Below, in pieces: positions 51,841 to 60,775 of a stretch of DNA of 64,000 bases (position 1 is the stretch's first letter; each line of letters begins with the position of its first letter). The notes beneath the pieces were generated by a model. The model saw only the letters and a list, made by a program, of their open reading frames with translations, was not told the DNA's origin and searched no databases. This DNA comes from [Synechococcus] sp. NIES-970. GTDB taxonomy: Bacteria > Cyanobacteriota > Cyanobacteriia > Cyanobacteriales > MRBY01. Location: positions 2,434,195 to 2,498,194 of the forward strand of contig AP017959.1 in the NCBI GenBank assembly GCA_002356215.1, in the 5' to 3' direction. A program made the position numbers and the translations under genes.

Positions 51841-52072
51841 CGGAGGACTCTCCCCTAACCCCTCCAAGGGAAGGATACCTCTCTTTCATGTCCCCCTCCG
51901 TGGGAGGGGCTAGGGGAGGGTTGTTTTCCCCTGGAGGCTTAACCCCCTCTGCCTTCGGCATCTCCCCCCGAGGGGAGACTCCCCTCTCCGGGAGGGTCAC
52001 CCAGCAATTACGCTACACCCCCCTTTCATGTCCCTCTCTTGGGAGGATTTAGAGGAGGGTTATTTTTTCTTC
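51841..52072. repeat. Interspersed repeat cluster A
   Basis: It contains the recurring pieces CCCCTAACCCCTCC, a reverse-complement copy GGGAGGGGCTAGGGG (51902-51916), the CCCCTCTGCCTTCGGCATCTCC hairpin region around 51944-51965, and CTCCCGGAG-like palindromes. The element appears in inverted orientation relative to clusters D-F. It lies between ilvB and the downstream UvrD-like gene and extends a few bases into the end of that gene. Confidence 0.75.
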
Positions 52073-54130
52073 GGTGGCTTGAAGCAGAGGATAGAGGGGG
52101 CCGAGTTGTTCGCTCCCATTGGTGCCGAAGTCGCTATGACAGAGATAAATCTGGATGTCGGTGCGGGCCAGGAGGTCTTGGACAATGTCCTGGAGCCGCT
52201 GCCGATCGCCTTTTTGTTCCGCCGTGATCGACCAGGGTTGGCCATCCCAGTTTTTTAAGAAGACACCGTAGCCAAACAGGGTTGCGGCGCCGCCTTTTTC
52301 CCAGAGGCGCGACCCCACATCCAGCCAAAATTGGTAGGGATGCCGGCGGCGATCGCCCCGGTATTGAAAAATCGTCGCTAGGGTAACAGCATTGCGGGGC
52401 TGGTGGTTGAATTGCTGTTGGGGCCGGGGATTTGTGGTGATGGTATCTTCCTGGAGCAGTTGAATAAATTCCCGAATTTGGGCGCTGATTGACAGATTTT
52501 GATGCAGACGATCGCCACATTGCCAGAAATGCTGGGCCGTTTCCATCAGTTCCCGAAAAGTGGCCAGTTGACCGTAGTCGGGGGACAGTTTTTGCAAGTA
52601 AAAATCCTGGATTGCCCGGTTGAGGGTTTCCAAAACCCCCTGGGGCGTGAGGGCGTCCGTCGTTTGGGCCTGGTGGAACCATTGGCAGATCTGTGTGTAG
52701 GCGGTGCTGGCTTGGTAACCGAGGCGATCGCCCCGGGCCATGGTTGCCACCGGGAGCAGTTGGGGCCGTTCTGGATCGGGCTGGAAACAGTAGTCCACCA
52801 ACAAACCTGCGCGGACAGGGTCAATGGCAGGTTTCCCCTGGGGGGTCTGGGACAGGAGAATCAGCATTTCCGCTACATCGGCCCCATAGATGAGGCGACC
52901 GCAGCCGGGATAAATCAACGCTAAAAGGGTGACGAGCGATCGCCCCCAGGGAGAGCTGTAGAGGGGGCGCTGCTCCTGGAGTGGTTCGAGGGGGATATTG
53001 GCGGCGGCGAGGCCATCCATCAGAGTATAGCGGGCTACTTCGTCTAAGCCAGGGGCAATGATGGCAATGTCCCCAGGGGCGACCCCTTGGTCTTTGACGA
53101 GGTGTTGAATCTGTTCGGTAACCCGGGTCAGCAGTTGGGCGCGGGCGATCGCCTGGATTGATTGCATTTGGGTGGGCAGTCGCTTGCCTAGGGCACGGTG
53201 GTCAAGATAACCCTGGACCTGTGCCCCGAGGCTGCCCGCCAAGCCTGCTTCCCGCTCGAGGGCAATGACCTGACAACATTTAGACAGATTTTGCCAATGG
53301 TCAGGATCGGCCCCCAAGCCGAGGCGCACCCGGCCCACCGGATTTTCTGTAAACACAGCATGACAGCCTTGGTCTAACAGCACCATAGCGATCGCCTGGG
53401 CGATCGCCGGATAATCCTGCACATCATCGGCAAAAATTGCCCGAAACCGTTGTCCCAGGGAAGCTCGATAGGTTTTGTTCGGGAGTAGATGTTGCCCATA
53501 AAGTTCATAGAGAATGCCATAGGTGAGGAAGCCCCGCTCTAAGCACCAATCCCGCCATTGCAAAATCAGCTCCCCAGCAGTCGCGGTGAATGCAGTCAGG
53601 CGATCGCCAAACCCAGCCATGGCCGTCAGCCCCGTTAAGAGGGACAAATTTCCCTGGTGCAGCCGTTGGGGAATCTCTTCGGCCCCGATCCCTGCCGCCC
53701 CCGCGAGGAATAATAAATCCAACAGACGCCGTACCAGGCGATTTTGATAGCGCTCATTGGGGGGCAACTCCCAGGTGCCAAGGGTGTCTACCCACAGTTC
53801 CCGAGCTAACTTTTGCTCCATCTCTGGCCGCAGGCGCAGGGGCAAATCTCCCTTGAGTTCTAGGGGGGTGGCGATTAGGGGCCAAAACAGCTTTACTTCG
53901 TCTTGAATAAAGGCGATCGCCGTTTTGCTCGTAAAGGGATAGGTGCCGTTCAGTTCTGTTTGTAGCCGTGTCGCTAAATCCCATTGGTTGCGGTTATTGG
54001 CCGCCAGCACCAGCAACCCCGGCACGGCGATCGCCCGACAGTCCTGGGCCTCGACCCAAGTTTTGATCTGATTGACCAATGCGGTGGTTTTTCCCGACTG
54101 CGATCGCCCTTGCAACCAAATTCTGCCCAT
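52049..54130 (-). CDS. UvrD/AddB-like recombination protein (degenerate helicase)
   Basis: About 693 residues. Walker A is GRSQSGKTTAL near residue 10. AIFADDVQDYPAIA, equivalent to the UvrD DExQ region, and GDIAIIAPGLDEVARYTLMDGLA are recognisable. The typical late helicase motifs are weak (LATIFQYRGDRRRHPYQFW). It resembles cyanobacterial RecB/AddB-like proteins of the 'recombinase family' and probably acts in DNA repair. The ATG at 54130 is preferred to a TTG eight codons upstream. Its 3' end overlaps repeat cluster A. Confidence 0.7.
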   Translation of the reverse strand: MGRIWLQGRSQSGKTTALVNQIKTWVEAQDCRAIAVPGLLVLAANNRNQWDLATRLQTELNGTYPFTSKTAIAFIQDEVKLFWPLIATPLELKGDLPLRLRPEMEQKLARELWVDTLGTWELPPNERYQNRLVRRLLDLLFLAGAAGIGAEEIPQRLHQGNLSLLTGLTAMAGFGDRLTAFTATAGELILQWRDWCLERGFLTYGILYELYGQHLLPNKTYRASLGQRFRAIFADDVQDYPAIAQAIAMVLLDQGCHAVFTENPVGRVRLGLGADPDHWQNLSKCCQVIALEREAGLAGSLGAQVQGYLDHRALGKRLPTQMQSIQAIARAQLLTRVTEQIQHLVKDQGVAPGDIAIIAPGLDEVARYTLMDGLAAANIPLEPLQEQRPLYSSPWGRSLVTLLALIYPGCGRLIYGADVAEMLILLSQTPQGKPAIDPVRAGLLVDYCFQPDPERPQLLPVATMARGDRLGYQASTAYTQICQWFHQAQTTDALTPQGVLETLNRAIQDFYLQKLSPDYGQLATFRELMETAQHFWQCGDRLHQNLSISAQIREFIQLLQEDTITTNPRPQQQFNHQPRNAVTLATIFQYRGDRRRHPYQFWLDVGSRLWEKGGAATLFGYGVFLKNWDGQPWSITAEQKGDRQRLQDIVQDLLARTDIQIYLCHSDFGTNGSEQLGPLYPLLQATEEKITLL

Positions 54131-55698: not shown

Positions 55699-55707
55699 AA
55701 CAAAATC

Positions 55708-55762
55708 CTCCCTTGAGGGAGGTGCCGAAGGCGGAGGGTGTTTTCTTCTTGAGGGAAGCCCT
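55708..55762. repeat. Interspersed repeat cluster C (single module)
   Basis: AAAATCCTCCCTTGAGGGAGGTG followed by CCGAAGGCGGAGGGTGTT: hairpin CTCCC-TTGA-GGGAG and a second small stem, the shortest clear copy of the module. It lies just after pxcA. Confidence 0.8.
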
Positions 55763-55801: not shown

Positions 55802-56224
55802 TCACAAGCTAAACCAATTCACTAACTCTAGGTCTTCGAAACATTGAAAATCTTTCGTGTTGCGCGTCACCAAAGTTAAACTATTGACAACGGCGATCGC
55901 CCCAATTTGACTATCAACCCAGGACGGTGTTTTGCCTTGCGCCCCCAGATAGGCTCGTACTTGGCCATGCCAAATCGCTGCCCTTTGATCATAATCAAAA
56001 ACCTTGAGCCCACCGTGCAGCAAATTCTGTACATATTGCGCAATTCGTTCGCGCTTCTTTGATGAAGGCAATCTTTGGTAGCCAAACACCAGTTCATGGA
56101 TGACGAGAGAAGCCGTTGCCACCTCATGTTGATGTTTTTCCAAGGATAATAAAACCTTAAGATTGGGGACTAATTGCAGTGGCTCCAAGAGGATATTTGT
56201 ATCCAGAAGAAACTTTAGTGTCAT
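55802..56224 (-). CDS. PIN-domain toxin (VapC-like)
   Basis: 140 residues. KFLLDTNILLEPL holds the first acidic residue, IHELVFGY the second, and PSWVDSQIGAIAVVNSLTLVTRNTKDF the third and the conserved TRNxxDF. PIN toxins are Mg-dependent ribonucleases. It overlaps the upstream antitoxin gene by 4 bases and is probably co-translated. Confidence 0.88.
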   Translation of the reverse strand: MTLKFLLDTNILLEPLQLVPNLKVLLSLEKHQHEVATASLVIHELVFGYQRLPSSKKRERIAQYVQNLLHGGLKVFDYDQRAAIWHGQVRAYLGAQGKTPSWVDSQIGAIAVVNSLTLVTRNTKDFQCFEDLELVNWFSL

Positions 56225-56454
56225 AACTCTACATCGCGCCCAGGCTGATGATCGCGCAAATCGATGAAAAATAAATCATCGACTAATCCTTCTCCTGTCG
56301 CCTCAATTTCTGTTCGCATTTTGCTGAGAGCTTGCCACCATAGTGTGGGCGATCGCTCGGGTACCACTTCCAGAGAAACCAGCGCTCCATCTGGAATATC
56401 TAATACTTCCAATAGCTCAATGTGTTGACCGCGTTTAATTCCCTGAATCTGCAT
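56221..56454 (-). CDS. Antitoxin partner of the PIN-domain toxin
   Basis: 77 residues. N-terminal MQIQGIKRGQHIELLEVLDIPDGALVSLEV resembles an AbrB/VapB-like swapped-hairpin fold, and the C-terminal part (VDDLFFIDLRDHQPGRDVEL) likely wraps the toxin. Together with the following gene this is a type II toxin-antitoxin module, likely autoregulated. Confidence 0.8.
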   Translation of the reverse strand: MQIQGIKRGQHIELLEVLDIPDGALVSLEVVPERSPTLWWQALSKMRTEIEATGEGLVDDLFFIDLRDHQPGRDVEL

Positions 56455-56516: not shown

Positions 56517-56697
56517 TGCTGTGGGGTTTGTGCCGCAGGCAGAGGAGGGTTAGCTTCCAGGAGAAAAAAGAAATACTGATTTATAGGTAGCGCAGTTGGT
56601 GGGTAACCCCCCCCTAGCCCCTCCCATGGAGGGGAACATGAAAGATCTCCCCTTGAGGGGAGTTAGAGGGGTGTTCTCCCCGAAGAGAGGATCATTG
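56517..56697. repeat. Interspersed repeat cluster D
   Basis: Contains GCCGCAGGCAGAGGAGGGTTAGC, TAGCGCAGTTGGTGGGT (56588-56604), CCCCTAGCCCCTCCC (56611-56625), and CTCCCCTTGAGGGGAG (around 56647-56662). These pieces follow the same order as in clusters E and F. It separates the toxin-antitoxin genes from the pilin genes. Confidence 0.85.
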
Positions 56698-58190: not shown

Positions 58191-58441
58191 CAAAAAAATC
58201 CTCCCTTGAGGGAGGTGGTCGCCAGACCGGAGGGTGTTCTCCCTTGAGGGAGGTGGCACTGAGCCCCAGCGAAGTGACGGAGGGTGTCAATCCTCCAGGG
58301 AAACAAAAGAAAATGTCGGTCAGTTCCGAGATTGGTGAGTGACCCTCTCCTAGCCCCTCCCAAGAGGGGAATGTCGGTGGGGAGCGCAGTTGGTGAATAA
58401 CTCTCCCCTAACCCCTCCAGCGGAGGGGGAGAAGAAAAGGC
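58191..58441. repeat. Interspersed repeat cluster E
   Basis: Two CCTCCCTTGAGGGAGGTG-type hairpins with differing second stems (one with GTCGCCAGAC, one with GAGCCCCAGCGAAGTGAC), then AATCCTCCAGGG, CCTAGCCCCTCCC (near 58349-58361), AGCGCAGTTGGTG (58383-58395) and CCCCTAACCCCTCCAGCGGAGGGGGAG. It is the largest copy and immediately precedes the DUF559 gene. Confidence 0.85.
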
Positions 58442-58483
58442 GGAAGTGTTGGGTAAGATTGTGAAAAAAAATGGTGCTCTGCC

Positions 58484-58885
58484 ATGCCCCGCGAAATACG
58501 TCCCTACAATCCCATCCTGAAAGAGCGCGCCCGCGAACTCCGCAAAACCATGACCAGAGGCGAAACGATCCTTTGGCAACACCTCCGCAGGAGACAAGTT
58601 CTCGGCGTCAGCTTCCTGCGTCAACGCCCCATTGATCAATTTATCGTTGACTTTTATTGCAAAGACTGGGATCTAGCCATCGAGATTGATGGCAGTAGTC
58701 ACGACAGCCTCGCCGCCCAAGAACACGACGCTTACCGCCAAGCCCGTCTCGAAGCCCTAGGGATTACTTTCCTACGATTCAGCGAGTACGATGCCCAAAA
58801 TCACCCTGACACCATTATCGAAACCATCGCGCGGTGGCTCCTCACTCATCCCCAAAAATCCTCCCTTGGGGGAAGTGACCGATAG
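58484..58885 (+). CDS. DUF559 / Vsr-like endonuclease domain protein
   Basis: 133 residues. N-terminal MPREIRPYNPILKERARELRK, then LWQHLRRRQVLGVSFLRQRPIDQFIVDFYCKDWDLAIEIDGSSHDS, in which Asp and Glu of D-x(n)-E-x-D resemble the PD-(D/E)XK nuclease core, and LGITFLRFSEYDAQNHPDTIIETI. The last residues SSLGGSDR are encoded by the repeat module of cluster F. Its position between two repeat clusters suggests that it belongs to the repeat system. Biochemical activity is unproven. Confidence 0.85.
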   Translation: MPREIRPYNPILKERARELRKTMTRGETILWQHLRRRQVLGVSFLRQRPIDQFIVDFYCKDWDLAIEIDGSSHDSLAAQEHDAYRQARLEALGITFLRFSEYDAQNHPDTIIETIARWLLTHPQKSSLGGSDR

Positions 58886-59008
58886 GCCATAGGGGATTCT
58901 CCCCTCGAGGGGAGATGCCGTCAGGCAGAGGGGGGTTAAGCTCCAGGAGAAAAATTACCCTCCCCTAGCCCCTCCCGTGGAGGGGAACAAGGGTTGTCGG
59001 AGGGTTAC
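58852..59008. repeat. Interspersed repeat cluster F
   Basis: It begins inside the end of the DUF559 gene with AAAAATCCTCCCTTGGGGGAAGTG and continues with CTCCCCTCGAGGGGAG (58901-58916), GATGCCGTCAGGCAGAGG, AAGCTCCAGGAG, and CCCCTAGCCCCTCCC (58962-58976) with GTGGAGGGGAAC. Confidence 0.85.
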
Positions 59009-60745: not shown

Positions 60746-60775
60746 AAAAAAAGCCTCCCCTAGGGGAGGCTTTTT
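60746..60775. terminator. Perfect bidirectional terminator after ndhD
   Basis: AAAAAAGCCTCCCC, TAGGGGAGGCTTTTT: an 11-bp self-complementary stem flanked by A- and T-runs. Confidence 0.92.

Follow-up and report, generated by a model that had tools for sequence, protein, structure and literature searches.

Palindromic repeats bracketing DUF559 nuclease genes suggest a minimal mobile element with gene-less derivatives

Within a stretch of [Synechococcus] sp. NIES-970 DNA (64,000 nucleotides; here termed the window), a small nuclease gene lies among palindromic repeats and terminates inside one of them, which raises the question of whether gene and repeats constitute a single genetic unit and, if so, how such a unit spreads. 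The open reading frame (ORF) at positions 58484 to 58885 matches DUF559 (Pfam PF04480; E value, 4.2e-29), representing the sole DUF559 match at an E value of 0.001 in its own 3.12-Mb genome, and C-rich palindromic module arrays are present on both sides, the left and right arrays aligning with each other over 62 nt (74%). The preliminary description of this locus held that the final residues and stop codon of the gene derive from a repeat module, and this is borne out by the codons, as the gene ends TCC TCC CTT GGG GGA AGT GAC CGA TAG, specifying SSLGGSDR and the stop. On the left, the module closest to the gene has the stem CCCCTCC AGC GGAGGGG and stops approximately 50 bp ahead of the ATG; the 43-bp gap between repeat cluster and gene given in that description varies with the module boundary chosen. 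Judged by eye, the innermost modules direct their hairpins toward the gene and their tails outward; the inverted match between them is short (12 nt), and the ends of the window element are proposed by analogy with those of the priA insertions described below (Table 1).

Table 1. Features of the window related to the DUF559 gene and its repeats
Feature	Position	Strand	Remarks
DUF559 (Vsr/EDxHD-like) nuclease gene	58484..58885	+	133 aa; last 8 codons and stop within repeat module
Left repeat array	58192..~58442	.	Four modules, two each of CTCCCTTGAGGGAGGTGG..GGAGGGTG and ACYCTCYCCTARCCCCTCC-hairpin
Innermost left module, proposed left end of gene-bearing element	58400..58434	+	Tail ACTCTCCCCTAA outward, hairpin CCCCTCCAGCGGAGGGG; sequence reading
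Right repeat array	58852..59008	.	Sequence reading, array alignment
Innermost right module, proposed right end	58856..58898	+	Hairpin CTCCCTTGGGGGAAG, tail to ATAGGGG; gives SSLGGSDR and stop
Gene-less repeat cluster, family of window modules	51847..52090	.	
Gene-less module	55699..55756	.	81% match to left array
Gene-less repeat cluster	56536..56690	.	

The explanation that we regard as probable is that the DUF559 gene and its flanking palindromes form a mobile element, that the lone repeats are its gene-less derivatives, and that the nuclease acts on its own palindrome with the participation of host repair. Folding of four window stretches as lone strands gave z scores of -1.0, +0.2, -1.3, and -1.9, little or no better than dinucleotide shuffles. 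Among the other contents of the window, positions 55802 to 56454, between the repeat clusters, harbor two overlapping ORFs whose translations resemble a PIN-domain toxin and an antitoxin, and a toxin/antitoxin-like pair of comparable appearance adjoins the DUF559 gene of locus L003. The remaining short repeats of the window are dominated by GGCGATCGCC, which occurs at many places and which we take to be the HIP1-type octamer of cyanobacteria. At positions 60746 to 60771, immediately following an antiporter/NADH dehydrogenase gene, AAAAAAAGCCTCCCCTAGGGGAGGCT has the look of a terminator hairpin more than of a repeat module.

The AlphaFold2 model of the window protein (mean pLDDT of 88) yielded three fold matches in the PDB at an E value of 0.001, namely, 3hrl (NGO0050) and the catalytic domain of I-Bth0305I (two chains), with TM scores by target length of 0.82, 0.77, and 0.76, respectively; I-Bth0305I is an EDxHD homing endonuclease, a type described previously (PMC3943268, PMC12350094). 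Sixteen columns, including those of window residues D56, E67, D69, H73, and D82, are invariant in 34 homologues. The dN/dS values of the window gene relative to two sister genes are 0.094 and 0.16, and 9 of 13 pairs fall between 0.065 and 0.185, the remaining four pairs (0.36, 0.49, 0.59, and 0.90) all being of low divergence; these comparisons indicate that selection acts on the DUF559 gene. A weaker fold match to Vsr (E value, 0.014; TM score, 0.53) brings to mind a host VSP-type enzyme, repairing the T:G mismatch which follows deamination of 5-methylcytosine and residing among repeats by chance or selection. The E. coli DUF559 protein YcjD has been tied to Vsr by profile comparison (PMC1189080). 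In favor of a repair function, VsrA of Caulobacter, a DUF559 protein, is treated as a putative VSP repair enzyme, with a VsrA-dependent SOS response reported in a methyltransferase mutant (PMC12907096). A repair enzyme would, however, leave unexplained the bracketing by clade-matched repeats, the insertions in priA, metH, and hsdR, and the co-variation of gene and repeat copy number, and this alternative is considered very improbable.

Comparison with related strains was extended to the genus of the window, where DUF559 was detected in 6/6 sampled genomes. Outside the window genome, modules were seen by eye on both sides of all eight full-length DUF559 genes; clear modules were not seen at the broken copy of genome G005 (L010, L011) or at two partial matches (L012, L013). 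The modules of the sister genes comprise five sequence types, which go with the nuclease subtype, and one DUF559 gene of G002 (L083) is plasmid borne. The preliminary description would have been refuted by relatives lacking neighboring repeats, and these eight genes did not refute it; the exact C-terminal tail is, however, not conserved, as L009 ends QKKVLPSQGS and L008 ends KKSSLEGGGRRPEGAILPYEGN, each followed by the stop. A gene running into a repeat nevertheless recurs among the sister genes, its tail sequence varying. Local crowding of the repeats emerged from the same genomes, with 10/26, 9/23, and 3/7 repeat clusters of G002, G003, and G000 located within 20 kb of the gene (expected values of 0.34, 0.30, and 0.10), this test using a repeat pattern different from that of the f31 copy counts presented below. 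In G002 (contig C1, positions 1949124 to 1949253) and G003 (contig C1, positions 1964631 to 1964834), the module is repeated in tandem, the period being 37 bp. Comparison of G002 with G003 revealed one inserted tail-hairpin-spacer stretch of approximately 60 bp; a clean, full empty site was not found in this comparison.

To place these observations in a bacterial context, flanks were scored in two sets of loci. The bacteria-wide set consisted of the best 80 of 586 loci from a scan, ranked by similarity to one protein and therefore uneven as a sample, and the cyanobacterial set of 40 stretches, i.e., 32 solo genes and 8 picked for long ORFs; 3 to 4 loci were left out as their flanks were too short. 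Perfect stems which measure 6 bp or more and include a run of CCC or GGG, located on both sides and within 300 bp of the domain, were found at 71/116 DUF559 loci versus 17/728 control ORFs located more than 3 kb away within the same stretches (Fisher P = 2e-55). By class, such hairpins occur at 39/59 short and 14/18 long ORFs of the bacteria-wide set and at 11/31 solo genes and 7/8 long ORFs of the cyanobacterial set. Similarity between upstream and downstream flanks exceeded 25, the 95th percentile of mismatched pairs, at 74/117 DUF559 loci versus 76/929 control ORFs, and either sign was present at 95/116 versus 68/712. Neither sign was found at 21/116 DUF559 loci, among them a metH insertion (L187), and some DUF559 genes may therefore act otherwise or have lost their repeats. 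Cross-locus comparison shows an association of DUF559 genes with bracketing repeats beyond chance. Flank-like repeats also thin out with distance, numbering 20, 26, 12, 11, and 2 in successive 2-kb bins (62 loci with at least 19 kb; chi-square P = 9e-5, with related loci not independent of one another). Long "fusion" ORFs containing DUF559 had been considered as negative controls; their flank similarity proved as high as that of solo genes (median of 53.5 for the eight cyanobacterial long ORFs versus 16 for control ORFs), and this control was dropped because the element is inserted in frame there.

The relationship between repeat and nuclease was assessed by pairing loci from different genomes which do not occupy syntenic positions; coding ends were removed from their flanks, and a score above 25 was taken as a shared repeat. 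Sharing was observed in 10/18 pairs whose nucleases are 75% or more identical, falling to 36/128 at 60 to 75%, 111/1839 at 50 to 60%, 124/4001 at 40 to 50%, and 13/616 at 30 to 40% (Mantel-type r of 0.09, reached in 4/999 permutations). When coding ends were included, the uppermost class reached 17/18 pairs, and it is the weaker figure of 10/18 which is relied on here. Ten same-genome paralogue pairs at 40 to 50% identity scored 15 to 24, with one of them at 30, and the single paralogue pair at 75% identity scored 26 without coding ends and 65 with them. On this comparison, repeat type follows nuclease clade.

The most informative alleles were found in a bacterial family designated f31, which probably corresponds to the Gastranaerophilales, as the DUF559 protein of one member (G145) is 100% identical to a protein so labelled. 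In 10/34 f31 genomes, a full DUF559 insertion is present in frame in the linker of priA, a few residues ahead of the Walker A motif, giving ORFs of 877 to 943 aa. Among the 30 readable loci, 12 have no extra residues at the linker and 8 have shorter extra stretches, of which half (L206, L212, L214, and L223) appear from reading to retain element ends, the right end of L214 matching that of L215. At the DNA level, most full insertions start with ACCCCTCACCCC-AACCCTCTCCC..GGGAGAGGG, continue with DUF559, and close with approximately the reverse complement (..GGGTGAGGGGT), the right ends being altered in L204, L207, and L215. The full element, therefore, reads as tail-hairpin-DUF559-hairpin-tail, spans approximately 440 bp, and has inverted ends, the terminal inverted repeats measuring approximately 36 bp; flanks which are mutual reverse complements were likewise found in a gene group of family f6 (e.g., L109 and L111). 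No target-site duplication was seen by eye at priA, where few alleles are close enough to judge. By allele comparison, both occupied and empty states of one bracketed unit are represented, and the proposal of the preliminary description that repeat-gene-repeat is the full element and lone clusters its gene-less copies is well supported by these empty, remnant, and full alleles. Taken as a whole, the comparative evidence argues strongly that the repeat-DUF559-repeat unit acts like a mobile element from which gene-less copies derive.

The same alleles bear on a homing-like alternative, according to which the repeats spread by other means and the nuclease gene is a rider, cutting gene-less clusters into which it is then copied by recombination. 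The resemblance of the fold to I-Bth0305I, the patchiness with which one priA site is occupied, empty, or left with a remnant, and the matching of repeats to nuclease clade are all compatible with such a rider. A mere rider does not, however, account for the rise of repeat copy number with the gene within genera, nor does it sit easily with six genomes which carry the full priA element and lack Y1_Tnp, the sole type of mover searched for; we consider it unlikely.

Insertion in frame is not limited to this priA site. Judged by domain positions, DUF559 occupies a second site inside the PriA protein of L177, and priA genes with in-frame DUF559 were noted at L142, L172, and L177. The MetH protein of Flavobacterium cucumis (L187) is split by DUF559, PDB entry 9ssp aligning to residue 753 and resuming at residue 773, with approximately 144 residues in the query at this gap versus 19 in the 9ssp chain; since neither flank sign is present at L187, its repeats are decayed or absent. 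DUF559 is also found in frame within HsdR (L166), HsdS (L135), and an Eco57I-type methylase (L090). In-frame insertions mostly carry translated repeats, L187 not being clear in this regard. Across the 78 scored bacteria-wide loci, 18 ORFs are at least 260 aa long, although in some of these DUF559 is N-terminal, and not all are clear insertions. A Pfam scan of nine host ORFs listed no splicing domain. Many database "domain fusions" with DUF559 may represent such in-frame insertions.

Repeat copies were counted in 292 genomes using the pattern CCCTCACCCYRRCCCTCTCCC with up to 2 mismatches, DUF559 presence in f31 being scored at an E value of 1e-10; the counts include the copies which adjoin the gene, of which each element can contribute up to two. 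Among the 129 sampled f31 genomes, those with DUF559 have a median of 6 copies (n = 53) versus 0 for those without (n = 76). Within genus g70, the 10 DUF559-positive genomes hold 4, 6, 6, 9, 9, 18, 19, 45, 51, and 84 copies, while eight of the 11 DUF559-negative genomes hold none and three hold one. When labels were shuffled within the 11 genera having both states, the observed value was reached in 4/5000 shuffles; several f31 genera displayed no difference in copy number by DUF559 state. Genomes G252 (21 copies) and G292 (64 copies) carry repeats without a DUF559 gene detected at 1e-10, perhaps because the gene was lost recently, because it falls in an assembly gap, or because a different mover is at work. 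By comparison across genomes, gene and repeat co-vary in number. The likeness to REP elements and their transposase gene noted in the preliminary description gains from this co-variation and from the clade-matched repeats, in addition to the layout and the gene-less copies.

This likeness also calls for consideration of RAYT (Y1/HUH) transposases encoded elsewhere as the actual movers, with DUF559 as cargo or as a tamer of hairpins. RAYTs are the proposed movers of GTAG-tagged REPs (PMC3116915, PMC3733652), and Y1_Tnp genes were found in 27/27 other cyanobacterial genomes tested, so that a contribution of RAYTs is conceivable there. In the window genome itself, however, the one Y1_Tnp copy is broken and lies on a different contig, and sister genome G004 lacks Y1_Tnp at an E value of 0.001 yet carries DUF559 with modules. 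Y1_Tnp was likewise not detected in 6/10 genomes with the full priA element (drafts of 96 to 99% completeness), and GTAG, on either strand and within 8 nt of the stem, accompanies 15/241 flank hairpins at 11/116 loci. Movement by RAYTs is, therefore, regarded as quite improbable.

The DUF559 gene of E. coli, ycjD, is present in 3365/5426 genomes. The K-12 YcjD protein ends RRSPSP, a tail derived from a repeat, and modules were seen on the 3′ side only of this locus. With a loose cut-off (E value of 10), a related repeat of 44 nt was located at a median of 19 places in each genome. One search using ycjD plus the repeats downstream of it listed 59 chromosomes, on which the median number of other repeat places is 16 (9 to 24) where ycjD is present (n = 37) and 4 (2 to 14) where it is absent (n = 22), a contrast which follows phylogroups and is, therefore, not independent evidence; O157:H7 and O55:H7 strains without ycjD still have 12 to 13 places. 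A search for empty sites in the yihR-yihS and ytfQ-ytfR intervals encountered polymorphic, rearranged spacers, in which an exact boundary was not found. Strains without the eef operon are reported to carry ycjD at that locus, and the gene is reported to be 12 nt longer in ST69 and ST182 (PMC12817139). In KE47, the YcjD tail reads LSPSPQPSP, i.e., four codons of repeat sequence beyond that of K-12, and the 12-nt excess of ST69 and ST182 may be the same repeat-derived difference. The ycjD locus with the tail difference lies between sapF and fabI (L229, L234). Elements of the DUF559 type look as though they span bacteria from cyanobacteria to E. coli.

The minimal element would consist of an outward tail, a hairpin, one nuclease gene, a second hairpin, and a second outward tail, lone modules and inverted pairs representing MITE- or REPIN-like gene-less derivatives. 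Most likely, the Vsr/EDxHD-like nuclease recognizes the imperfect palindrome of its own clade, extruded or single stranded, at which it would nick or cut; the action on hairpins put forward in the preliminary description is plausible on the structural model. To our knowledge, PD-(D/E)XK-type nucleases do not join ends, and a host step is thus required, whereby host repair and recombination would copy the unit, mostly nearby and sometimes into genes. We infer hairpin cleavage, movement via host repair, and the role of the nuclease, and of no other enzyme, as the driver. Of the six reading frames through the consensus element end, five are open and would be translated as linkers rich in Pro, Gly, Arg, and Glu; as the ends contain few stop codons and encode linkers rich in Pro, Gly, and Arg, insertions can remain in frame. 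In its widest form, namely, that nuclease-only elements of Vsr/EDxHD type in many phyla generate and locally spread a common palindromic repeat (CCCTCACCCYAACCCTCTCCC and relatives) via host repair and, through in-frame-tolerant ends, enter even essential genes, the proposal is one toward which we lean slightly.

If correct, the proposal would extend minimal mobile elements by a new kind and explain how PriA, MetH, and restriction proteins acquired in-frame nuclease domains. One of the two super-families of palindromic repeats in a 2013 survey apparently lacks a dedicated transposase (PMC3733652), and a small nuclease travelling with its own repeat would provide an enzyme for another such repeat family. 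Neither a tie of DUF559 or YcjD to repeats nor an account of an enzyme for repeats of the present type was found in the open-access literature, a scope outside which most subscription papers fall. The presence of ycjD in E. coli K-12, and of related repeats in ycjD-positive genomes, makes a laboratory strain available for testing the idea.

Among known systems, insertion sequences with MITE derivatives share with the DUF559 element the inverted ends, the single gene, and the gene-less derivatives; they differ in that the sole gene here is DUF559 (approximately 110 codons) rather than a DDE, tyrosine, or serine transposase, and in that no target-site duplication was seen. The EDxHD homing endonuclease I-Bth0305I represents the closest characterized fold (EDxHD/Vsr) and likewise has occupied and empty alleles, whereas DUF559 occupies numerous sites unrelated to one another, has its own hairpin repeats on either side, and has no splicing domain listed around it. 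Homing endonucleases lie in introns or inteins, and free-standing ones exist. Vsr and Caulobacter VsrA belong to the same fold family, VsrA containing the DUF559 domain (PMC12907096), but the available portions of their descriptions mention neither repeats nor gene mobility (PMC12907096, PMC1189080).

CGTC-tagged REPs and the Rickettsia elements RPE-4 and RPE-6 are also palindromes, some of them in ORFs (PMC3733652); the CGTC tag and the 8- to 9-bp stem starting with A-T pairs, as described for them, do not appear to match the modules read here, and a scan limited to G+C-rich stems placed CGTC no more than 8 nt from the stem at 7/241 flank hairpins. A close parallel is provided by REPs and REPINs with their RAYTs (REPtrons), REPINs and RAYTs having been defined in 2011 (PMC3116915), and REPs within genes, REP ends which supply stop codons, and CGTC REPs without a dedicated transposase having been described by Di Nocera et al. 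in 2013 (PMC3733652). Both systems combine short imperfect palindromes, often in inverted pairs, around a single nuclease gene with gene-less copies elsewhere, some within genes, and in both the repeat ends can provide stop codons. In contrast to REPtrons, the DUF559 element encodes a Vsr/EDxHD-like nuclease rather than a Y1/HUH transposase and bears no general GTAG tag, its repeats crowd strongly near the gene (in three genomes), and the gene itself is found in frame within host genes.
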